In this document: positions 775 to 38,505 of the stretch, piece by piece
Layout of the letters: every line of letters begins with the position of its first letter
Numbering within the stretch: the first letter of the stretch is position 1
Assembly: GCA_018608435.1 (NCBI GenBank)
Contig: JABAZV010000018.1
Span: 35,298 to 78,749 of the forward strand
Direction of reading: 5' to 3'
Source: Patescibacteria group bacterium
Lineage (GTDB): Bacteria > Patescibacteriota > Minisyncoccia > Phycocordibacterales > UBA918
DNA length: 43,452 bases
Notes under the pieces: generated by a model
The model's database searches: none
What the model saw: only the letters and a program-made list of their open reading frames with translations
What the model was told of the DNA's origin: nothing
Made by a program: the position numbers and the translations under genes

Positions 775-1638
775 ATGATTAATCAGGAATTACTCGACTA
801 CATTCAATCAAGGGCTAAACAAGATGTCAGCAGAGAGCAAATTATTAAAGAACTTGAACTAGGCGGTTGGCAGATGCAAGATATTGAAGAAGGATTTAAT
901 ACTTTGCCAACGACATCAATTTCAGCCAATTCAACGTTATCTGATATCGCTCCAATACCTGCTACTAGTTTTTCTTGGAAAATAGAAGTGAGTTTGATAA
1001 TGGTAATAATTATTATTGGTGGAGGAATATATGTAGCAAGTAAAACACTAGGAGATACAGAAAAAGAATTTGAACTTTCTGAATCAACATTTATCAAGGA
1101 ATCTGAGGAGACAGATGTTTTGACTTCAGTATCAGAAGTGCCGGCAATAGTACTTGATGAGAAGCCTAATGAGTCTGAACCTTCTCAGGAAGTAGTTTAT
1201 GAAGAGTCTGTAGAAACTATAATTACTGAAACTCCAACAGCAGAAACTTTCACCACCGAGAAAGATGAAAAAGTTTTAAATCAGTTTAACTTAGTTATTG
1301 CCGAGAAAATAAAGTCTTGCGAGTCATACAGCGGACAATATATACACGTCTTTACTTCTGAAATACTACAGAGAGAAATTAAGGAGATTGACGGAGGGGT
1401 GTGTCGAATTGTGGAAGAGTGGCCGAATAATGGACAAATGGAGTGTAATCTCACAAAAAATCAAAGAGAGTCGATGTCTGCTTACTATACCCAAGTTGCT
1501 GAAGCAGAGTCTTTTCAAATAAATATGAATTCTTCTTCTGGCAGTGAGCCAGAAGGTGAATTTATTATAGACGGAAAGGTGGAACTTAAGTATCAAGAGT
1601 TACTATCAAATGGAGCTTGTGTCATTACTGGTTATTAG
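775..1638 (+). CDS. Single-pass membrane protein with N-terminal UBA-like ~45-aa domain
   Basis: 287-aa ORF. N-terminus MINQELLDYIQSRAKQDVSREQIIKELELGGWQMQDIEEGF, then one TM, a Glu/Thr-rich linker and a Cys-containing C-domain. Good promoter and downstream terminator. Confidence 0.85.
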   Translation: MINQELLDYIQSRAKQDVSREQIIKELELGGWQMQDIEEGFNTLPTTSISANSTLSDIAPIPATSFSWKIEVSLIMVIIIIGGGIYVASKTLGDTEKEFELSESTFIKESEETDVLTSVSEVPAIVLDEKPNESEPSQEVVYEESVETIITETPTAETFTTEKDEKVLNQFNLVIAEKIKSCESYSGQYIHVFTSEILQREIKEIDGGVCRIVEEWPNNGQMECNLTKNQRESMSAYYTQVAEAESFQINMNSSSGSEPEGEFIIDGKVELKYQELLSNGACVITGY

Positions 1639-1841: not shown

Positions 1842-4800
1842 TTACCAACTAAAGAAATTTGCTACCTTGCTAAAGAATCCTCCAGCGGTAGCTTTTTCAG
1901 TTTCTGTCTGGGGTGCTGGTTCGGGAGTTGGTGTAGGTTCAGGAGCTGGCGCTGGTTCAGGAATTTTCTGCGTATCTGGTTTAGGTGCAGGTAGAGGAGC
2001 TGGAGTGATAATCACTGGTTTGGGTTTAGGTGCTGGCTCTACATAAGTCAGGGTAGGTTTTGGAGCTTGGTAAGCAGGCTTAGTGGTGCTGATGCCGGCC
2101 ACTTGTGGTGCTGGTGTGGGGGTTGCTGGTATAGCGAGGCTTAACTTGTTTACCAAGTACGGCACCACGAAAGTGTATTCACGGCTAGTTGTCACGTCTG
2201 TCTCGTTTTCCGAACGAACTCGATAGCCATAAGATGTGCCTGGTTGTAGTCCTGTGATAATCATGTAGTGCGTCGTTTTCTTTTCAGGGAACATAAAACT
2301 AACACTTCGGTAGCCCAGATTTGGCTTGTTGATGTCGTACTGAGAAATCGCTTGGTAGGGTCCGTAGTAGATACGGCTGAGAGAAGAGGTTGACGTTTCC
2401 CACGCCATTAAAGCAGATGTTTGTCCGTCAGCACTGGGGAAGAAGGCTATGGTGGCGACGTTTCCTACCGCAAGGGCAATTCCGTTGATTTGCAGTTTGT
2501 AGACAGCGTCTTTGATGCTTAGTGATTCTCCTCCTGAAGCTTTTGTATCTTCGTCAAGATAGGCTTTGACACTAGCAGTATTAGTGTAAATACCTGAGGG
2601 GGTGTCTGCGTTGTAGTCTGTGGTGTATGTCAGCTTAATTTCTTCACCTGGAAGTATGGTGCTCAGGTCCCAAGACTGACTGTTTACTTCTGAACCAATC
2701 GGGTTGGTCAAAACATCAAACACTTCTGCATTGTAGGCATTGCCACCATTGTTGGTGACGGTGATGGTGTAATCGACAGAATCACCAGCGTTTATAATTT
2801 CACCCTCACTAACATCAGCTGTTTTGTTTATCGAGATCAGTGGTTGTGCGTCAGGGTCAACATCCATCACTTCTCGGTCGACTTTCTTTTTCTTGTTTTT
2901 TGAAGAAGACCCTCCACCTCCACTTCCGCCACCACCAGATGATGCTGGCGGGGTGATTGTTGGTGGGGTAGTGTCACCAGTAGTGTCAGTTTCAGTGTTG
3001 TCACTGCCTGAATCCGTACTGTCTGTGTACAAATACGAGCTTACGAGAGTTAGTAAATTATTGCTGAAGTCGTTGTCTCCAATGTCGCTGGTTACTTTGG
3101 CGTGAGCAGTAACGCTGCTGGTGCTTTGAGGGATGTTTGAGTCAACTGTTGCCCCAAGTGTTACAACGCGGCTAGCACCGGGAGCAACACTTCCTAGACT
3201 GACAGACTGATTGTTGCTGTTGTTAGTCTTGGCGTTTTCTAGCACTTGGTCTAAAACCACATTAGTTGCTATTTGGTCGCTGCTGTTACTGACGGTGTAC
3301 GTGTAGGTTAGGTTGTCATTTGGTCCAACTGGTCCGCTGTCGTTAACAACGCCAGTCAGGCCTAAGTCGGTTGAAGTGAAAGAGATGTTACCGTCTAAGT
3401 CACCCAAGATGTTGATCACGGCGTATGTCCAGTTGGTACCGATGACGTTGGTATTGGCAATGTTCATCACGTTTGCACTCGCAAACGCATCACCAGTTTC
3501 GATACTTCCAGTCAGACCGAGATTTTCGTTTTCTCCTGTGATTGCTCGTACTGTCAGAGTATTTTCTAAGTACAGTGCGTTGTTCTGGTTATTGATTTGG
3601 GCAGAATATGAGTCGATGTCATAGCCAAACATTTCTGATGGTGCAATTTCTGCGTCAACGTTGTAGATAATCAATCCGTCAGGCGTCCATTCCCAAGTGA
3701 GGCCATCAGGCAATCCTACTACTTCGCCATTCCAGTAGCCGTGGATACGTACGCGCAGGTAGAAAGAGTCACCGCCATAGGTGTTTGAGTTTACTTTGTT
3801 GAGTACGTTGGATTCAGTTTCCGACATACCAGTTACGATAGAAGAGTTAACGTCAGTTTCTGAGTCGTTATTTCCCGTCTGACCATACGTGTCTAGGTTG
3901 TTTTCGACTACAGCGTTGTTGGTGTTGGTGACAGAAATGTCTGCTGCTTCACCTTCTTCTAGTTGATTAAGACCGTTAGGCTGTGCAAAGTAGGATCTAA
4001 ACAAGTCTTCGGATGGCAAAATCAAATCGCCTTCAAGGTCGCCAATGGCGTTGAAGGTGAGTAGTTGATAGTTGGAGTCGATGATGTTGGTATTGATCAC
4101 ATTCATCACATTGACGCTCGCAAACGCGTCACCAGTAGTTATTTTGGCAGATAGGTTTCCGTCCGCTTCGTTGTACCCAGTCGTTGCTTCGACTATGGCT
4201 TGGTTAGTGACAGTGGCAGTGTTGATTTGTGACATGTTGTACACAACATCTTCCGCTGCACAAGAGAGCAGGCTACATGTACCAGTGTTGGTCAGGGAAG
4301 TAGCAGCTTCAGGGAAGAACGAGCTGGTGAGGTCTAGCGACTCACTTGGACCGAGAATTTTGTTTCCAAGATAAATCAATCCTTCGGAGTTAACAACATT
4401 AGTATTGATAATATTTGCGATATTGAACGCAGAAATAGCGTGTCCGGTTTTGATGGTAGCTTCAGTGGAAGCAATGGCGAGGTTTTCTCCGGTTGAAGAC
4501 AGAATGGCGCCTTCATTACTGACGATAGCTTCGTTGGTACCAGTAGCTATAAAAGTATAGAAATCTAGATCGCCGGAAGCTTCTGGAGTTAGTTCGCTGC
4601 GAACGTCGTTGGAGTTTGCGTCAGTGAACAGCTCAGCGCGGGCGGTAGCGATGCCGGTTTCAATCAAAGTTTTTCGACCAGTGCGCTGTATGTCACCAGT
4701 GACTTCATTATCCTCTGCTTCGTCTGGGTCGCCAATCAGACTGTCAGACTTTACTTCAACTGGGTCACCAGCCTCTGGTGTCACTTCACCATTTGCGCCA

Positions 4801-5294
4801 GCAGTACCTTCATTACCACCTCCACCAGAACTGCCAGTTTCACCAGTACTGTCTGGTGTTGGTGGGGTTGTGCTGGCTGTGTCGCCGTCGTTTGTGTCGC
4901 CGTTACCATCGGTTCCATCAGCGGTGTTGTCAGTTGATGTGCTGCTGTCACCATCTGTGCCACTTTCAGTTGAACTAGCGTTCCCTCCGTCTTCACTGAT
5001 GGGTGGGGTGGTTGAAGCGGTTGAAGTCGCTCTGTCATCCGCGTCGGCACCATTACCAGTATCGGCTGGGGTGCTCGTTCCGAAATCACCGGCTGAAACT
5101 GCCTGTGGGGGCTGGTTGTCGGCACCGTTAGCGGTAGATGATGCATTAGAAATGTCATCGCTTGAGGGGGTAGTTGACGCTGCTTCTTGTGCAAAGACAG
5201 CTGCAGGCATAGTGCTCACTAGCAGAGTAGCTACTACGAGGCCTGCAAAAAAACGGTATAGTTTTTTATCTAGTTTAAAATAGTTTGTTGACAT
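1842..5294 (-). CDS. Large secreted multidomain surface protein (DUF11-like repeats, FN3-like domain, Pro-rich C-terminus)
   Basis: 1150 aa. Signal peptide, T/S/D/G-rich region, four ~100-150-aa repeat units containing (I)xTGxAxxSxNxxNxxNTN, two DUF11-like domains, an FN3-like domain, a PAP/PEP-rich stretch, and C-terminus GGFFSKVANFFSW. Confidence 0.9.
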   Translation of the reverse strand: MSTNYFKLDKKLYRFFAGLVVATLLVSTMPAAVFAQEAASTTPSSDDISNASSTANGADNQPPQAVSAGDFGTSTPADTGNGADADDRATSTASTTPPISEDGGNASSTESGTDGDSSTSTDNTADGTDGNGDTNDGDTASTTPPTPDSTGETGSSGGGGNEGTAGANGEVTPEAGDPVEVKSDSLIGDPDEAEDNEVTGDIQRTGRKTLIETGIATARAELFTDANSNDVRSELTPEASGDLDFYTFIATGTNEAIVSNEGAILSSTGENLAIASTEATIKTGHAISAFNIANIINTNVVNSEGLIYLGNKILGPSESLDLTSSFFPEAATSLTNTGTCSLLSCAAEDVVYNMSQINTATVTNQAIVEATTGYNEADGNLSAKITTGDAFASVNVMNVINTNIIDSNYQLLTFNAIGDLEGDLILPSEDLFRSYFAQPNGLNQLEEGEAADISVTNTNNAVVENNLDTYGQTGNNDSETDVNSSIVTGMSETESNVLNKVNSNTYGGDSFYLRVRIHGYWNGEVVGLPDGLTWEWTPDGLIIYNVDAEIAPSEMFGYDIDSYSAQINNQNNALYLENTLTVRAITGENENLGLTGSIETGDAFASANVMNIANTNVIGTNWTYAVINILGDLDGNISFTSTDLGLTGVVNDSGPVGPNDNLTYTYTVSNSSDQIATNVVLDQVLENAKTNNSNNQSVSLGSVAPGASRVVTLGATVDSNIPQSTSSVTAHAKVTSDIGDNDFSNNLLTLVSSYLYTDSTDSGSDNTETDTTGDTTPPTITPPASSGGGGSGGGGSSSKNKKKKVDREVMDVDPDAQPLISINKTADVSEGEIINAGDSVDYTITVTNNGGNAYNAEVFDVLTNPIGSEVNSQSWDLSTILPGEEIKLTYTTDYNADTPSGIYTNTASVKAYLDEDTKASGGESLSIKDAVYKLQINGIALAVGNVATIAFFPSADGQTSALMAWETSTSSLSRIYYGPYQAISQYDINKPNLGYRSVSFMFPEKKTTHYMIITGLQPGTSYGYRVRSENETDVTTSREYTFVVPYLVNKLSLAIPATPTPAPQVAGISTTKPAYQAPKPTLTYVEPAPKPKPVIITPAPLPAPKPDTQKIPEPAPAPEPTPTPEPAPQTETEKATAGGFFSKVANFFSW

Positions 5295-5802
5295 AATTAA
5301 TTAACATGAGACTGATTGATAAAAGAGTTTTACTTATAAAGGACTGTTTGTCTTCGGCCACAGTAGTGTTTGGTGTACTTGAAGGTCCTTCATTGCTGTC
5401 TGGTTCGGTTTCGGTGCTCGGTGTTACCTTAGGTTCGAACAGGGGATCAGGGTTGTTACTAAGTGGTCTAGAGTTGTCGATATCTACCACATCGACTCCG
5501 TTGATGGTTGATTTAATCCGGATAGTACTGGTGCCATGACTAGTGATCACATCCGCCCCGTCTGCACCAGTCTGACCATTGGCGCCATCTTTACCATCCT
5601 TGCCTGACTGTCCATCAGCTCCATCCTGGCCATTCTGACCGTCTGCTCCACGGGTAGACTGGCCGCCACTATTGCTGGATGACATTACTACATTCGAAAT
5701 TACATCCGAGTCGGTTGCCGAGGCAGTGCTAGGTGCTCCCAAACTGCTTGCAAGTGTGAGCGCAATCAAGATGTATATTCTTTTATAAAATGTGGTTTTC
5801 AT
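5275..5802 (-). CDS. Secreted collagen-like protein with hydrophobic C-terminal segment
   Basis: 175 aa. Signal peptide, G-X-Y run GADGQNGQDGADGQSGKDGKDGANGQTGADGAD, C-terminal FISKTLLSISLMLINYVNKLF. Its 3' end overlaps the downstream adhesin start by 20 bp. Confidence 0.85.
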   Translation of the reverse strand: MKTTFYKRIYILIALTLASSLGAPSTASATDSDVISNVVMSSSNSGGQSTRGADGQNGQDGADGQSGKDGKDGANGQTGADGADVITSHGTSTIRIKSTINGVDVVDIDNSRPLSNNPDPLFEPKVTPSTETEPDSNEGPSSTPNTTVAEDKQSFISKTLLSISLMLINYVNKLF

Positions 5803-5842
5803 AATTTCCTCTATAAGGTCAGAATATGCTTCCGACCTTACC

Positions 5843-5874
5843 AGAGGATCTCTCTGGACTACAGAGAGACCTCT
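5843..5874. promoter_or_regulatory. Intercistronic hairpin
   Basis: AGAGGATCTCTCTG - GACTA - CAGAGAGACCTCT: 13-bp stem with one bulged A, between the Gly-rich and collagen-like genes. No T-tract on either side. Confidence 0.6.
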
Positions 5875-5893
5875 CTTGATTCGATTAGTTCTA

Positions 5894-7006
5894 CTAATTA
5901 CGAACTACTCGAGTCACATTTCGGTTCACAATGTTTGTTGCTCGGCTCCATGAATCAGCCCTTCCAGTGTTAACGGTTCCACCGTCTCCACCAGCTGCTC
6001 CATTTCCACCTTCGCCACCATCACCAGTGTTGCCACCAGCAGCACCTGTGCCACTGTCGCCGCCGTTTCCACCGTCTCCAGTAGCTCCGCCTTCACCACC
6101 AGCACCGCCGTTGCCAGCTCGTTGAGTGCCGTCAACTTCATCGGTTCCTAGTGAACTGGCGTCGCCACCTTCGCCACCATCGTTGCCGTTACCGCCTCCG
6201 CTAGTTGAACCACCGCCAGAGTCGTTAGTGCTTTCTCCACCATCACCAGCATCACTTCCGCCTTCACCGCCGTCAGCACCTTCGCCACCTCGACCACCTT
6301 TAGTAAGGTTGTCTCCTGAGTCGGCTTCAGATACAGCACGGTTATCAACTCGAGCTGACTCGTTGTCATTTTCCACTCGAGCTTCTGTAGTGTCGAGGTC
6401 AGCGTCACCAGCGTCACGTACGATGTCAGTGTCATTATTGTTGACGTCGTTATCGATTTCTGAAGTTGCTACTGCTTCACCAGAAGTGATGTCGCCACCA
6501 TCTCCACCCGCAGCACCGTTGCCACCAGTTCCGCCAGCACCAGTGTCGCCACCAGTTCCGCCGTCTCCGCTGTCTCCACCGTCTCCACCAGTACCAGTGT
6601 CACCACCGTTTCCAGAAGTACCACCGTTTCCGGCTTGCTGTAGAGCATCGGGTCCGTCTACGTCACCAGTAGCGTCACCTCCGTCACCTCCGTTTCCACC
6701 GTCTCCAGCATCACCAGTGTATCCTCCAGGTGATGTGTTTGTGCTGTCGCCGCCGTCTCCAGCGTTGTCGCCACCGTCACCTCCATTTCCACCACGTCCA
6801 CCTCGAGCTCCACGTGAAGTGTTTCCGCCAGTGTTTGATGTAGATAGAGCTACGTTTGTAACGTTAGCGTTGTTGTTGTTTTTCACTACGACAGTATCGT
6901 CTTCGTACGCTTGCGCCGGTACGGCTATTGCCCAGAGAGTCATAGCAGTTATCATAAGCACCGCTGATGTTTGCTTAAACGCAGTTTGCTTGTTTGTTGT
7001 TACCAT
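5894..7006 (-). CDS. Secreted glycine-rich repeat protein (two tandem halves)
   Basis: 370 aa. Signal peptide, then two similar halves with GGxGGDGGD-type spacers. The opposite strand holds only a Pro/Ser/Ala-rich shadow ORF. Confidence 0.88.
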   Translation of the reverse strand: MVTTNKQTAFKQTSAVLMITAMTLWAIAVPAQAYEDDTVVVKNNNNANVTNVALSTSNTGGNTSRGARGGRGGNGGDGGDNAGDGGDSTNTSPGGYTGDAGDGGNGGDGGDATGDVDGPDALQQAGNGGTSGNGGDTGTGGDGGDSGDGGTGGDTGAGGTGGNGAAGGDGGDITSGEAVATSEIDNDVNNNDTDIVRDAGDADLDTTEARVENDNESARVDNRAVSEADSGDNLTKGGRGGEGADGGEGGSDAGDGGESTNDSGGGSTSGGGNGNDGGEGGDASSLGTDEVDGTQRAGNGGAGGEGGATGDGGNGGDSGTGAAGGNTGDGGEGGNGAAGGDGGTVNTGRADSWSRATNIVNRNVTRVVRN

Positions 7007-7096
7007 AATGTTAATTAACTAATTTTTTAAATAAGCATCTTTTCTCACATGGAATAAAATGTTTCCAAAAAAGAAAGGGGATACGTGTTCTCGACC

Positions 7097-7126
7097 TTAT
7101 ACGGGTATGCAGTCATACCCGTATAA
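7097..7126. promoter_or_regulatory. Perfect 13-bp palindrome upstream of the surface operon
   Basis: TTATACGGGTATG-CAGT-CATACCCGTATAA, about 90 bp upstream of the 7006 start. No T-tract on either strand. Confidence 0.65.
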
Positions 7127-7201
7127 AGTAATCTTCCATAAACTGAAGAACACCAAATACAGATATATCTGCTTTTCAAGTTTTCAAGGTGTGCGAACAA
7201 C

Positions 7202-7230: not shown

Positions 7231-7451
7231 AGTAAAATTTACGGAGGGTGACTGCTGGTGTTAGTAATTTTGTGGAAATATGTCATGATAAAAACTACCC
7301 TAGACGCATGATTCCCACATCAGCGTTAGTGAAAATAATACACCCAGCAATAGTTTGGTGTCAATAATTTTGACTATCCTGATACAAAAAAAACTAGTGT
7401 CAACAGATACTGCGGGTTTTGGCGTGTTTTAAAAAGTACAAAAACAAAAAT

Positions 7452-7533
7452 AAGTCCAGTATTGAACCGACTCTCCGTGGGAAAGATCTCCTGATTAAAG
7501 AGAGATCGAGAAGGTCGGTTCAATACTGGACTT
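7452..7533. repeat. Long inverted repeat / candidate structured RNA
   Basis: Perfect 20-bp arms AAGTCCAGTATTGAACCGAC (7452-7471) and GTCGGTTCAATACTGGACTT (7514-7533), with nested GATCTC/GAGATC inside. Confidence 0.8.
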
Positions 7534-8140
7534 GTTTTCGTTCAGAAAACTATATCGAAAAAAATAATATGTCAAGAAAATTTTGTTTTTGCAGGCCATT
7601 TAATAGCGTATATTTTCCTATTCTGGGGCTGTAAACCTCGTTTTTTGATGACCGATGCAAACAAGATGATTATTTGTAATAAAATTTCCCTCAAAAAACT
7701 GTCGGTCATATTTTTGGCAAACGCGAAAACTTTTTGAGTTGATCCAAACAAAAGGAAGATGTTCTCAAAGGCATACTTGTCATGTTGTCGTTTAATCTCG
7801 CTAGATTAGATAATGATTTACAGACATATAAATTTGGATGAAATAAAGAAGAGGTAAACAAATACCCGTGTCAAAAGACGAGGATTTCCCACTCTTTTTA
7901 CAAAAAAATATTAACCAAAAATTGACCATATTATAAACGTCCGGACATAAATTATTTTCTGAACAGATTTTTAAGGAAGTGATTATTTCTTTTCTTGAAA
8001 CAGAATAAAAAAGCGACTAGTGTCGCCCTGAAGGTTATTGATATGGTTATTTCTGGACTCTTGTCAGAAATTTCTCCACTCTTCAAGTTGAAGAATTTTT
8101 AAACCAAGCCCTGGGCACATTTATAGCTATGGATAAGCAG

Positions 8141-17798: not shown

Positions 17799-20789
17799 AT
17801 GAAATACTTAATCTACACATTTGTGTTGCTGTTCTTCTCTGTAGGAGTAATTTTTACTCCTAGTGTAGTAACGACTGAAAGTAATGACCATTCTTTCCTT
17901 TGTAGTACTTTTGGTTGGTGCAATTCTCCAGAAAAAATTATGGTTTACACCGAAGATTCGGAGGTGTTTGCGATCGTACAAGCCACTGAAGCTGTAATTA
18001 TAGATGAGGTGCCATTAAATGAAAATGAATTGACCCTTAGTAGAGACTTGTCTTTAGAGACGAGTGGTGTTTCTGAGGTTAAGCTTGACAGTCGTTTGCA
18101 AGAAATAGTGGAGTATATAGACTCAAAGCCCTTGGTTTCGGTAACTAACCACTATGATTTTCCATACCTCCAAGCCACAGCTAATCGTGAGTATGTCGTG
18201 GAGTCTGTTGGTCGTCAGCAAGATTCCACCTCGCGTTCTATTCGTAGGGTCAAAGATGATATAGAAGAAGGCGGTTCTTTTAGCAGTCCGATTCTTAGTG
18301 ACGCGATCATTTCTGGCGCTAGTTATTCTACTGGTTTTTTTGGTTTTGGAACTACTACACCTAACGAGCTTTTGACCTTGGTTGGAGCAATGTATCTGGG
18401 TGAGTCAACGCCAGCGATTAGTGACAATCGTCTTTATAACTTTGGTGGTGATTTGTATTGGAACGGATCGGCTATTACTAGCTCCACTACTGCAAACTGG
18501 TCTGCTGCTGCTGGCGATGTCTTTCGTTTAACTGGTGGCGTTGGCATTGGTACTAGTACGATTACCGACACTTTTGTGGTAGACGGAACAGCTTCTTTCA
18601 CCGGCACGACAACGGCTCCGCTGGTCGATCGTGGTGGTTCAGTTTGTGATGTAAGGGCTTATGGTGGTGTGGGAGATAATTCTACCCTTAACGATGCAGC
18701 CATTGCCGCCGCCATCGCCGATTGTGGAGAAGGAGGAACAGTTTTCTTTCCGCTGGGAGAATTTCGCATTTCGCAACCCATCGTGCTTGATCGACCGGTG
18801 ACACTCCGCGGATCGTATTCACCGCGCTGGTCATATTCTTCAACACCACGCAGCTCAATTAGAGCGGATTTTGCCTCTTTTGCCGGCGCGGCTATGATTC
18901 ATGTGCGCGACCGATCAATCTCAGGCGAGACGAATGACAATAATGGAGGCAGGCTGGAGTACATTAGCCTTGACGGTGGTTCTGCTAGTACTGATGTTGA
19001 AGGTGTTTATTTTGAAGGCTTGGTGCGAGACTGGAAGTTGACTGATGTTGATATTTCGCAAGTAACAGGTAATGGTTTTGAGGCGGCTGTCGGTACAGGA
19101 AGCGGGAATCCGCGCGGTTTTACCATTCGCGGTCTTTCTATTTATAGTTCTGACGGGCACGGCTTTAGAGCGACGGCGTTAAATGATACTTATATAGACG
19201 ACCTTTTGTCGGTCGGTAACGCGTTAAGAGGTATCTATCTTTCGTCGATGGGAGAGACGAAGATTGCCAACTCAAGAGCCGTCTTTAATGGTTTAACAGG
19301 TCTTTATATTGACGGTGCGTCTAACAACGGCGGACTTTCTTTTACTGACTTTTCAACCGACCGTAACGATCGACATGGAGTGCGTATTTCATCAACTGGT
19401 ACTAGCACAATTATTTTCAATGGTTTGGTAACTAGACGAGATGGTCCAAATACCTCAGGCGGATCGGAAACTCCATACGCTGGCGTTGCTGTAATAGGAT
19501 CAACTACAAATAAAGTAGCTCCAGTGTTTATTTCTGGACTGGGGCAAGTAATAGGGGTTGATGATGTGGGAGCACCACCACTTTCACCAGAGACTGGTGT
19601 CAGGGTAACAAACTCGACTTATGTAAAGATCGATGGACAGCTTTGGGGTGTTACAGAGGCATGGCGAGATGATGGTGGTAACGATAATTTTATTATTGAA
19701 GATGATTCTATTTTAAAAACAGGTAATGCTGGTGCGCAGGAGCTATACGCTAATTCGAGTAAGTGGCAAGCTACTTCAACCAACGAACTGTTCTTTGGCA
19801 ATCGGGTAAGTATCGGTAGTACTACAGACTCGAGACTGTTTAATATCGTCGCCCCAAGCGACGTAGCTGCAAGAATGCGTGATACAACCAATGATGTAAC
19901 GATGGATATGCGGGTTGAAGATTTTCAGGCGTTTTTAGGAACAGTTTCAAATCACCAAGTTCGTTTTATGACCAACAACACATCGCAATTAACCATTGAT
20001 ACAAATGGTTATATTGGAATCGGTACTACATCGCCTGATGCGGTACTTGATGTCGTAGGTACAATTCAGTCATCCGCTTTACTTGGCGGTGCCACTAATT
20101 TAACTACTGACATCAACGGTAACATTATTCGCGATCCATCAGATCAACGTCTTAAGACGAATATTACTTCTATTGATAACGGTCTTGAACGGGTACTTTC
20201 GCTCCGTGGAGTTACTTATGAATGGAAAGATAAAGAGCGCTTCGGTGATCAGAAAGAGATTGGTTTTATTGCGCAGGAGGTAGACGAAGTCGTTCCAGAA
20301 GTTGTTCGTAAAGGAGGTGAATATTGGTCTTTGAACACACGCAACTTAGTAGCTGTCGTGGTAGACGCGATTCAAGAAATGTGGGATGTACTGACAGCAA
20401 CTAGAGCTGATGTAGAGCAGCTTGAAGACCGAGTTGAACATCTTGAGAGTCTACTAGAGATTTCGCTTGAAGAGCAAGAGATAAGTGAAGAAAAAGACAA
20501 CATAGAGGTACAAACAGAAGATGTTCCTGTCATAGAGAGTGATGAAATAACAATTGATGAAAGCGCTGCTGAATTATTGTCAGATAATGAAGAAGAAAAA
20601 GTCGAAGGTGCAGAAACTGATGAAGTAAATGTTGAAGTTGAGGAAACTGAAGCTCCTCAGTCTGAGTTTGTTAATGAAAATACAGCAGAAGAGGGGAATG
20701 AGGAGGATGAGAAAGAGGTTGAAAAAGACAGTGCAGAAACAGAAATAAAGACCGAAAACTTCATGACGACAGAAGTCCTGAATTTATAG
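17799..20789 (+). CDS. Secreted pectate-lyase-superfamily beta-helix protein with Peptidase_S74 domain and acidic tail
   Basis: VCDVRAYGGVGDNSTLNDAAIAAAIADCGEGGTVFFPLGEFRIS (Pectate_lyase_3 start). SDQRLKTNITSIDNGLERVLSLRGVTYEWKDKERFGDQKEIGFIAQEVDEVVPEVV (S74). Then coiled coil and a ~100-aa Glu-rich tail. TATAAT at 17785-17790. Confidence 0.93.
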   Translation: MKYLIYTFVLLFFSVGVIFTPSVVTTESNDHSFLCSTFGWCNSPEKIMVYTEDSEVFAIVQATEAVIIDEVPLNENELTLSRDLSLETSGVSEVKLDSRLQEIVEYIDSKPLVSVTNHYDFPYLQATANREYVVESVGRQQDSTSRSIRRVKDDIEEGGSFSSPILSDAIISGASYSTGFFGFGTTTPNELLTLVGAMYLGESTPAISDNRLYNFGGDLYWNGSAITSSTTANWSAAAGDVFRLTGGVGIGTSTITDTFVVDGTASFTGTTTAPLVDRGGSVCDVRAYGGVGDNSTLNDAAIAAAIADCGEGGTVFFPLGEFRISQPIVLDRPVTLRGSYSPRWSYSSTPRSSIRADFASFAGAAMIHVRDRSISGETNDNNGGRLEYISLDGGSASTDVEGVYFEGLVRDWKLTDVDISQVTGNGFEAAVGTGSGNPRGFTIRGLSIYSSDGHGFRATALNDTYIDDLLSVGNALRGIYLSSMGETKIANSRAVFNGLTGLYIDGASNNGGLSFTDFSTDRNDRHGVRISSTGTSTIIFNGLVTRRDGPNTSGGSETPYAGVAVIGSTTNKVAPVFISGLGQVIGVDDVGAPPLSPETGVRVTNSTYVKIDGQLWGVTEAWRDDGGNDNFIIEDDSILKTGNAGAQELYANSSKWQATSTNELFFGNRVSIGSTTDSRLFNIVAPSDVAARMRDTTNDVTMDMRVEDFQAFLGTVSNHQVRFMTNNTSQLTIDTNGYIGIGTTSPDAVLDVVGTIQSSALLGGATNLTTDINGNIIRDPSDQRLKTNITSIDNGLERVLSLRGVTYEWKDKERFGDQKEIGFIAQEVDEVVPEVVRKGGEYWSLNTRNLVAVVVDAIQEMWDVLTATRADVEQLEDRVEHLESLLEISLEEQEISEEKDNIEVQTEDVPVIESDEITIDESAAELLSDNEEEKVEGAETDEVNVEVEETEAPQSEFVNENTAEEGNEEDEKEVEKDSAETEIKTENFMTTEVLNL

Positions 20790-37422: not shown

Positions 37423-38505
37423 TTACTTTTTCTTTTCTTTCTTCTCTTTCACAGCGCCAAGGATTAGTTCTGGTGAAAAACCTTCAGCTACGATGCCGAA
37501 GCGGGCGTATGAGTAAAGAGCAACTTTGAATATCTCTGACAGGGTGGAAGTTACAACTGAAAGAACTATTGCAGATAAGAAGAAAAGTACTAGAATTATT
37601 ACATAAGTAATAATTCCTAATCCAAGTGATGCGCTAAGGAATAAGAGTAACCCGTGTGCAACAACTGTTCCCAGGAAGAGCACTATGGTTACTAGTCCTA
37701 AAGACAAGTTCATTATGATGGTTTCTCCCCAAGTCTTTTTAAACACTGAACCTGAGTTTTTAACAGACTGCCATACAGAAACGTTGTCGAGAAGTAATGT
37801 TGGGGCTATAAACATGGTAACTATTGCCCAAGCTGCACCGAGCAGACCGGCTGCTAGTTTGCCGAGTAGTTTTGATCGGTTTGAAATAAATTGCAGTACC
37901 ACTCCGACAGTACTGGCAAGTAGGCTCCAGATAAAAATTTTCCCACTAATATTCTTGGCTCGGTTCATACCTTCAGAAAAACCAATGTTGCCACCGTTAA
38001 TTCTTTCGTAGACTATCGCAGTCAAGCCAACTTTGAAATATGTAATGATGAAGTAAGCTATTACATAGTAGGCAAACAGCGCGACATAAAAGAGAAGATC
38101 GTTTTCTTCTTGAGCAAGAGCGCCGCTCAGCCACATGCCGACACCAAAGATTGCGCCAGCAATCATGAGAAGAAGTGAAGAAATCACAGGAAAGAGAATG
38201 ATTTCTTTGTCTTGCTTGAGTATATTTAACGATTGCTTAAACAATCGCCAGCTAGCTTTAAACCGCCCCATTTGCTTAACCGAAGCAATTGCTTCGTCTC
38301 TCGTCATGGTATTTTCTGAGCCTGATGTGTTTGCAGTGTTCGGTGTTGGTGTTGGTTGAGCTGAGGTAGATGTTTCGCCAGCAAAGGCTGCGCTTACATC
38401 ATCTTCAGCCCAGCCATTATTAATAAGCGCTTGTCTTATCGACGATTCACTTTGGCCGCTTTGTCGCTGAATACTAATATAGTCGATTAATTCTTGGGTG
38501 ATCAT
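37423..38505 (-). CDS. Multi-pass membrane protein with UBA-like N-terminus
   Basis: MITQELIDYISIQRQSGQSESSIRQALINNGWAEDDVSAAFAGE, linker, then ~6 TM (DUF6159-like architecture, uncertain). Confidence 0.85.
   Translation of the reverse strand: MITQELIDYISIQRQSGQSESSIRQALINNGWAEDDVSAAFAGETSTSAQPTPTPNTANTSGSENTMTRDEAIASVKQMGRFKASWRLFKQSLNILKQDKEIILFPVISSLLLMIAGAIFGVGMWLSGALAQEENDLLFYVALFAYYVIAYFIITYFKVGLTAIVYERINGGNIGFSEGMNRAKNISGKIFIWSLLASTVGVVLQFISNRSKLLGKLAAGLLGAAWAIVTMFIAPTLLLDNVSVWQSVKNSGSVFKKTWGETIIMNLSLGLVTIVLFLGTVVAHGLLLFLSASLGLGIITYVIILVLFFLSAIVLSVVTSTLSEIFKVALYSYARFGIVAEGFSPELILGAVKEKKEKKK

Follow-up and report, generated by a model that had tools for sequence, protein, structure and literature searches.

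In the Fap system of Pseudomonas, every repeat of FapC contributes one cross-beta layer with a conserved Asn network, the linkers range from ~30 to 260 residues, and the partner protein FapB, encoded in the same operon, carries the same repeat (PMC12392863). Here we describe a locus from a Patescibacteria group bacterium in which one repeat unit is likewise common to the products of one operon, with the variable linker inside the unit. The locus lies in a 43,452-nt stretch of DNA (hereafter, the window), and the host genome measures 949 kb and is 98% complete. To our knowledge, the mode of attachment to host cells is unknown for most Patescibacteria. The original prediction, made from the sequence alone, held that three co-transcribed surface proteins share a unit of two motifs, the linker of which is replaced by Gly-rich or collagen-like inserts.

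The operon and its surroundings

Three consecutive open reading frames on the minus strand encode a Gly-rich protein (7006-5894), a collagen-like protein (5802-5275, hereafter the middle protein), and an adhesin (5294-1842). Their coordinates and strand, as well as the motifs originally quoted, were confirmed. The first two genes are separated by a 91-bp gap, the second and third overlap by 20 bp, and these three unit proteins make up the entire content of the window operon. By eye, a hydrophobic signal-peptide-like segment was recognized at the N-terminus of all three products. When adhesin sequences were compared, the closest named relatives belonged to Candidatus Kaiserbacteria and Patescibacteria.

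The three genes are likely to be co-transcribed, as originally predicted. A pattern scan, the total counts of which were near chance so that its matches lend weak support, returned no terminator-like sites on the minus strand within the three-gene run and one promoter-like site ~330 bp 5' of the Gly-rich gene:

7335-7364, minus strand: promoter-like site upstream of the operon, TTGACA-18-TATTAT, 11/12 matches (pattern match only)

The ~330-nt leader between this site and the Gly-rich gene contains a 16-bp hairpin (7094-7129). Upstream of the operon, positions 7443-7542 hold a 29-nt inverted repeat (93% complementary, 42-nt spacer) without an Rfam match; an Rfam scan of the whole window gave no match either. 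A phage or plasmid origin was considered and rejected, as tblastn against phage and plasmid collections yielded zero matches. Elsewhere in the window, a 996-aa secreted protein (17799-20789, plus strand) has a C-terminal segment that by eye resembles the endosialidase chaperone (peptidase S74; DQRLKTNI...GFIAQEV), as in phage tail fibres. Two membrane proteins (775-1638, plus strand, and 37423-38505, minus strand) have a similar N-terminal segment, INQELLDYIQSRAKQDVSREQIIKELELGGWQMQDIEEGF and ITQELIDYISIQRQSGQSESSIRQALINNGWAEDDVSAAF.

The shared unit

A hidden Markov model (HMM) of the unit was seeded with the four units of the window adhesin and iterated over the adhesins of 17 genomes only. 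Its consensus is NTATITNNVEVTANTGENEATGGTASIETGDAYASANVVNVANTNIIN. This beta-arch unit comprises ~48 residues, namely a motif 1 strand, a TGxN turn, a short linker, and the motif 2 strands, and has a high content of N, T, A, and G. Within motif 1, conserved and variable columns strictly alternate (even columns 2.7-3.6 bits, odd columns 0.4-2.3 bits). The conserved positions are N, A, I/V, N, V, V/T, A, and T, of which N, A, I/V, and T share one face, a pattern expected of a sheet that buries one of its faces. The adhesin is composed as follows:

1842-5294, minus strand: adhesin of 1150 aa, consisting of half a unit, four units, DUF11, an Ig/fn3-like domain, and a Pro-rich tail (ORF, Pfam, unit HMM)
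4605-4700, minus strand: N-terminal half unit with motif 2 only, aa 199-230 (HMM columns 15-46, 27.5 bits)
4389-4535, minus strand: unit 1, aa 254-302 (HMM 40.4 bits)
4077-4223, minus strand: unit 2, aa 358-406 (HMM 56.1 bits)
3774-3920, minus strand: unit 3, aa 459-507 (HMM 38.6 bits)
3438-3581, minus strand: unit 4, aa 575-619 (HMM 54.2 bits)
2538-2837, minus strand: the better match of two Ig-like DUF11 stretches (PF01345; the full-length protein scores 51.3 bits, above the cut-off of 24.6)
2169-2426, minus strand: domain resembling fn3 and the N-terminus of purple acid phosphatase (PF16656, 33 bits)

The four recurrences proposed for the adhesin correspond to four full units; the additional half unit at aa 199-230 had been missed. 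This arrangement of half a unit followed by four units is conserved; in 59 of 70 loci, the first match begins part-way through the unit model. Several distant operons (L130, L136, and L141) have a first adhesin unit with a long insert between the motifs in place of the half unit. In the window's genome, full-length unit matches were found in this adhesin only, the split units of the Gly-rich protein being below the threshold of that search.

The HMM also recognized the Gly-rich protein and confirmed two units in it. In both, motif 1 is separated from motif 2 (aa 45-66 and 159-194; aa 218-238 and 333-364):

5894-7006, minus strand: Gly-rich secreted protein of 370 aa with two units, first gene of the operon (ORF, split unit HMM matches, upstream homologue in 60/70 loci)
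6809-6874, minus strand: unit a, motif 1, aa 45-66 (adhesin-trained HMM columns 1-22, 9.0 bits)
6494-6808, minus strand: insert 1, GGX-type with 3-residue periodicity (lag-3 Gly enrichment)
6419-6493, minus strand: unit a, motif 2, aa 172-196 (HMM match aa 159-194, 20.9 bits; AlphaFold2 strands)
6293-6355, minus strand: unit b, motif 1, aa 218-238 (HMM columns 3-23, 6.6 bits)
5981-6292, minus strand: insert 2 (lag-3 Gly enrichment 1.28)
5900-5980, minus strand: unit b, motif 2, and a conserved C-terminal NRNVTRV(V)R tail (HMM 13.8 bits, aa 333-364; family alignment)

Although absent from the training of the HMM, the Gly-rich homologues contained the unit, split by the insert, in 17/17 cases. 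Motif 1 (columns 1-25) and motif 2 (approximately columns 16-48) gave separate matches in the expected order, in most proteins two times. The median score was 20.8 bits compared to a shuffled maximum of 8.5, and none of 1,700 composition-preserving shuffles reached the score of any of the 17 proteins. A profile-profile comparison of the window adhesin units with the Gly-rich flanks, from which the inserts had been removed by hand, gave E=4.4e-5.

The middle protein required a larger family for its assignment:

5275-5802, minus strand: middle protein of 175 aa with one unit, a collagen-like insert, and a hydrophobic C-terminal segment (ORF; homologues in 43/70 loci)
5653-5706, minus strand: motif 1 (hhalign of the family to the adhesin unit, E=7e-8)
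5551-5649, minus strand: collagen-like insert of 11 uninterrupted GXY triplets, aa 52-84 (sequence)
5479-5550, minus strand: variant motif 2, xIxTxVNGxVV (family alignment and hhalign)

With a set of close relatives, the comparison with the adhesin units supported motif 1 alone and weakly, and motif 2 was undetectable. With 45 homologues, hhalign aligned the family to the adhesin unit with E=7e-8 and a probability of 94.6 over columns 3-44, and thus both motifs of the middle protein are covered; the score was 38.5 versus a maximum of 9.1 among 60 column-permuted controls. The predicted succession of motif 1, linker, and motif 2 in the collagen-like protein was thus supported once the larger family was aligned. 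An HMM-HMM comparison between the adhesin units and the flanks of the inserts had been set beforehand as one of two refuting tests, and the similarity was significant for the Gly-rich as well as the middle protein. The results from the adhesin-trained HMM, the shuffles, and hhalign confirm the central claim that one beta-rich unit is common to the three products.

Profile searches revealed neither Pfam nor PDB sequence relatives of the unit, and neither the unit nor its arrangement is described by any Pfam or NCBIfam family, any solved structure, or any paper that we found. No equivalent system in CPR bacteria appeared in the literature searched, to which subscription journals were largely external. 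This agrees with the initial impression that the arrangement matches no described system.

Recurrence and expansion of the linker

The adhesin was present in 17 of the 80 genomes searched, i.e., the window's own, 13 of the same genus (out of 38 other genomes of that genus), and three of the same order. A further scan that took a single genome from every species, in part repeating genomes of the 80-genome search, yielded 78 loci, nearly all from Parcubacteria-type lineages. Among the 70 loci with more than 1.8 kb of upstream sequence, a Gly-type unit protein was encoded in 60, a middle protein in 43, and both in 41. The recurrence of homologous three-gene operons with the motif, named beforehand as a check, was thus observed, and the claim also passed the second refuting test, which looked for homologous operons lacking the motif. 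Of the 60 Gly-type operons, 19 do without the middle gene, which is therefore not obligatory; where present, its commonest spacing to the adhesin gene is -25, an overlap. In an even sample of the phylum, the unit was detected in 40/390 genomes from many families (E<=0.001). In one group of relatives (L030, L032, L033, L035, and L036), the operon lies, as judged by eye, between tsaD-like and valS-like genes, which is not the case for the window copy.

At the level of sequence, these comparisons demonstrate a new unit family in a recurrent operon of Patescibacteria that encodes two or three unit proteins, each starting with a signal-peptide-like segment. The finding has good support as a pattern of sequence and evolution, and it is apparently undescribed in the sources searched.

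The linker between the two motifs was verified as the seat of the Gly-rich and collagen-like stretches. In adhesins it has a median length of 9 aa (7-11 for the middle 80%); in Gly-type proteins the median is 39 aa with up to 115 aa and 40% Gly. Pooling of 46 long inserts gave a Gly enrichment of 1.53 at lag 3 and 1.35 at lag 6. In the window protein, insert 1 (aa 64-172) reached a lag-3 enrichment of 1.52 compared to a shuffled maximum of 1.43, and insert 2 reached 1.28 compared to a shuffled mean of 0.99 (sd ~0.11). Distant operons from other families of the phylum encode small two- or four-unit proteins with short linkers (e.g., L130, L131, and L139), and in most middle proteins the motifs are joined directly or via a short linker. 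Consequently, the best reading of the long loops, whether Gly-rich or collagen-like, is that they are derived expansions. Lengthening of the linker with GGX or GXY sequence, as expansion rather than loss, is thus supported by the sequence comparisons, in line with the diversification by loop expansion initially suggested.

The collagen stretch is missing from most homologues of the middle protein. It marks a four-member clade with 100/100 support (the window, L038, L039, and L040) and recurs in L076. On the tree, two changes were needed for the collagen insert and 0/200 bootstrap trees had a single change, while the starred branches alone still allow one origin. The Pfam Collagen family (PF01391) scored 26.5 bits with the middle protein in the protein search (cut-off 27.2) and 28.2 bits in the genome search; the rest of the window's genome contained no other collagen-like match.

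Structure, possible assembly, and known systems

The AlphaFold2 (AF2) model of the adhesin repeat region, based on 53 sequences, was confident (pLDDT 89.6, pTM 0.86) and mostly beta; the connectors contain a small number of short helices. Each unit contributes one 22-residue strand corresponding to motif 1 and several shorter strands corresponding to motif 2 and the part following it. For the Gly-rich protein, the model was of low confidence (pLDDT 49.7), with strands at the predicted motifs (172-174, 178-188, and 191-197 for motif 2 of unit a) and none reliable in the inserts. Foldseek returned no significant match for the adhesin repeat model in the PDB, and nothing significant was found in a viral structure library. 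The best PDB matches were two functional amyloids built of stacked repeats, FapC (9nqd, E=0.11) and CsgA (E=0.48), both non-significant and with a TM of ~0.07; the rank is suggestive only, and a structural relationship with either is not demonstrated by these values.

With respect to anchoring, the C-terminus of the adhesin is a membrane-spanning-like segment in 25 of 78 homologues, and the homologue in L028 has a peptidoglycan-binding domain. A clear membrane anchor was not found in the window adhesin. A C-terminal LPXTG motif with membrane segment and basic tail is absent from all three window proteins, which carry no sortase signal; two sortase genes are present in the window's genome (G000:C12:36426-36827 and G000:C1:35929-36348). 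In the 78-locus survey, none of the middle proteins had a membrane tail and two Gly-type proteins were flagged for one, the small proteins being otherwise without such an anchor; in L040, the ORF call is extended by 36 residues at its N-terminus, which may place the signal peptide inside the stretch tested. A third unit protein occurs in the distant operons L134, L138, L139, L140, and L147. It ends in LPATG and a membrane segment in L134 and L139 and in a membrane segment in L147, which suggests another way of anchoring.

How could these proteins work together? Stacked on one another, the units may build a beta layer in which each supplies one rung and in which Asn, Ala, Thr, and Val are buried. 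The adhesin is the likely cell-bound member because of the membrane-spanning-like segments and the one peptidoglycan-binding domain among its homologues, and the rung at its far end would be left open. The Gly-rich and middle proteins, both small and secreted, could add to it by like-to-like rung stacking, giving a short mixed fibre or brush. Their inserted loops, Gly-rich in one and collagen-like in the other, would point out to the side, either as spacers or as helices that cross-link (polyglycine II or collagen-like). A role in attachment or surface coating would fit an episymbiotic lifestyle. The chances of this rung-stacking assembly we regard as about even, and the co-assembly of the three products into a fibre, as originally proposed, is plausible. 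Counted in its favor were the homology of the units, the conserved architecture and operon, the short distant linkers, the alternation in motif 1, the AF2 confidence, FapC and CsgA as top if non-significant matches, the precedent of FapC, and the membrane tails of adhesins. Counted against it were the non-significance of those same matches, the low-confidence Gly-rich model, the 19/60 operons without the middle gene, the lack of a significant link between half unit and middle gene (p=0.09), and the window adhesin without a clear membrane anchor. Complementation between the adhesin half unit and the middle protein was dropped, as this p value leaves a half-to-half pairing unsupported and the middle protein has its own motif 2.

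More tentatively, and with odds that we place somewhat on the lower side, the system may represent a previously undescribed, phylum-wide class of heteromeric Patescibacteria surface fibres. The proteins of one operon would co-polymerise via a common beta rung on an anchored adhesin, and the rung loop would be an evolvable slot that took up polyglycine-II-type and, apparently twice, collagen-type side helices.

Alternatively, the genes may have arisen by duplication and retain the unit as a stable, general-purpose beta module, with the adhesin binding the host cell and the small proteins released as matrix or decoys, all acting separately. The occurrence of units in proteins with different partners, the 19/60 Gly-type operons lacking the middle gene, and the greater resemblance of adhesin units to each other than to the split, weaker Gly-rich units point in this direction. 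However, gene order and tight coupling, with the commonest middle gene-adhesin gap of -25, are kept over very divergent lineages, which is typical of products acting together, and we consider separate action rather unlikely. Still less probable is a two-dimensional, S-layer-like coat in which the unit repeats form a cell-proximal lattice and the Gly-rich protein an abundant filler, with no fibre. Membrane tails on many adhesins, the peptidoglycan-binding domain of L028, and the LPATG and membrane-spanning C-terminus of the third unit protein (L134, L139) would suit such a coat, but its presence in a minority of genomes (40/390 of the phylum, 13/38 other genomes of the genus) is unlike a basic envelope layer. 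Finally, chance likeness among low-complexity secreted proteins rich in Asn, Thr, Ala, and Gly, suggested by the composition of the unit, is extremely improbable, as composition-preserving shuffles and column permutations never attained the observed scores, the order of motif 1, insert, and motif 2 is kept, and the AF2 fold of the adhesin repeats is confident.

For structural biologists, the unit constitutes a defined target: it is widespread and uncatalogued, its fold is predicted with confidence, no solved structure matches it significantly, and the parts of its operon are clear. It also offers a clean natural case of how loop insertion can make a glycine-rich or a collagen-like surface protein out of one small beta unit.

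Several known systems share individual traits with the window proteins. Like other DUF11/fn3 repeat surface proteins, the adhesin has two DUF11 stretches and an fn3-like domain, but these domains follow the new unit on its C-terminal side without overlapping it. The middle protein resembles the bacterial collagen-like surface proteins Scl, BclA, and Lcl in being a secreted surface protein with a short, uninterrupted run of GXY. It differs in that its triplets number only 11 and sit within the loop of a beta unit; scores of the window proteins with NCBIfam Scl2/SclB and Lcl were far below the cut-offs. Phage S16 gp38, snow flea antifreeze protein, and PE_PGRS are Gly-rich GGX proteins thought to form polyglycine-II bundles. 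They share GGX runs and the 3-residue periodicity with the window inserts, which differ in being nested in a shared beta unit, and the AF2 structure of which is not confident. Curli (CsgA/CsgB) consist of stacked beta-solenoid repeats and CsgA was the second PDB fold match (E=0.48), but the window unit is about twice as long, and the Pfam curlin repeat was neither among the families listed for the 53 homologues (E<=1) nor found in the three window proteins.

The Fap system differs in a FapC repeat of 38-39 residues with its own Gly/Asn/Gln motif, in linker variation between repeats rather than inside the unit, and in that the window system includes one multi-domain adhesin; profiles A4 and A6 searched against PDB sequences retrieved no FapC at E<=1 and E<=10. 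Common to both are operon-encoded partners with one repeat type, imperfect repeats, conserved Asn on a beta layer, and very variable linkers (PMC12392863). FapB/FapC is the closest functional analogue, with a likeness in possible working rather than family membership.
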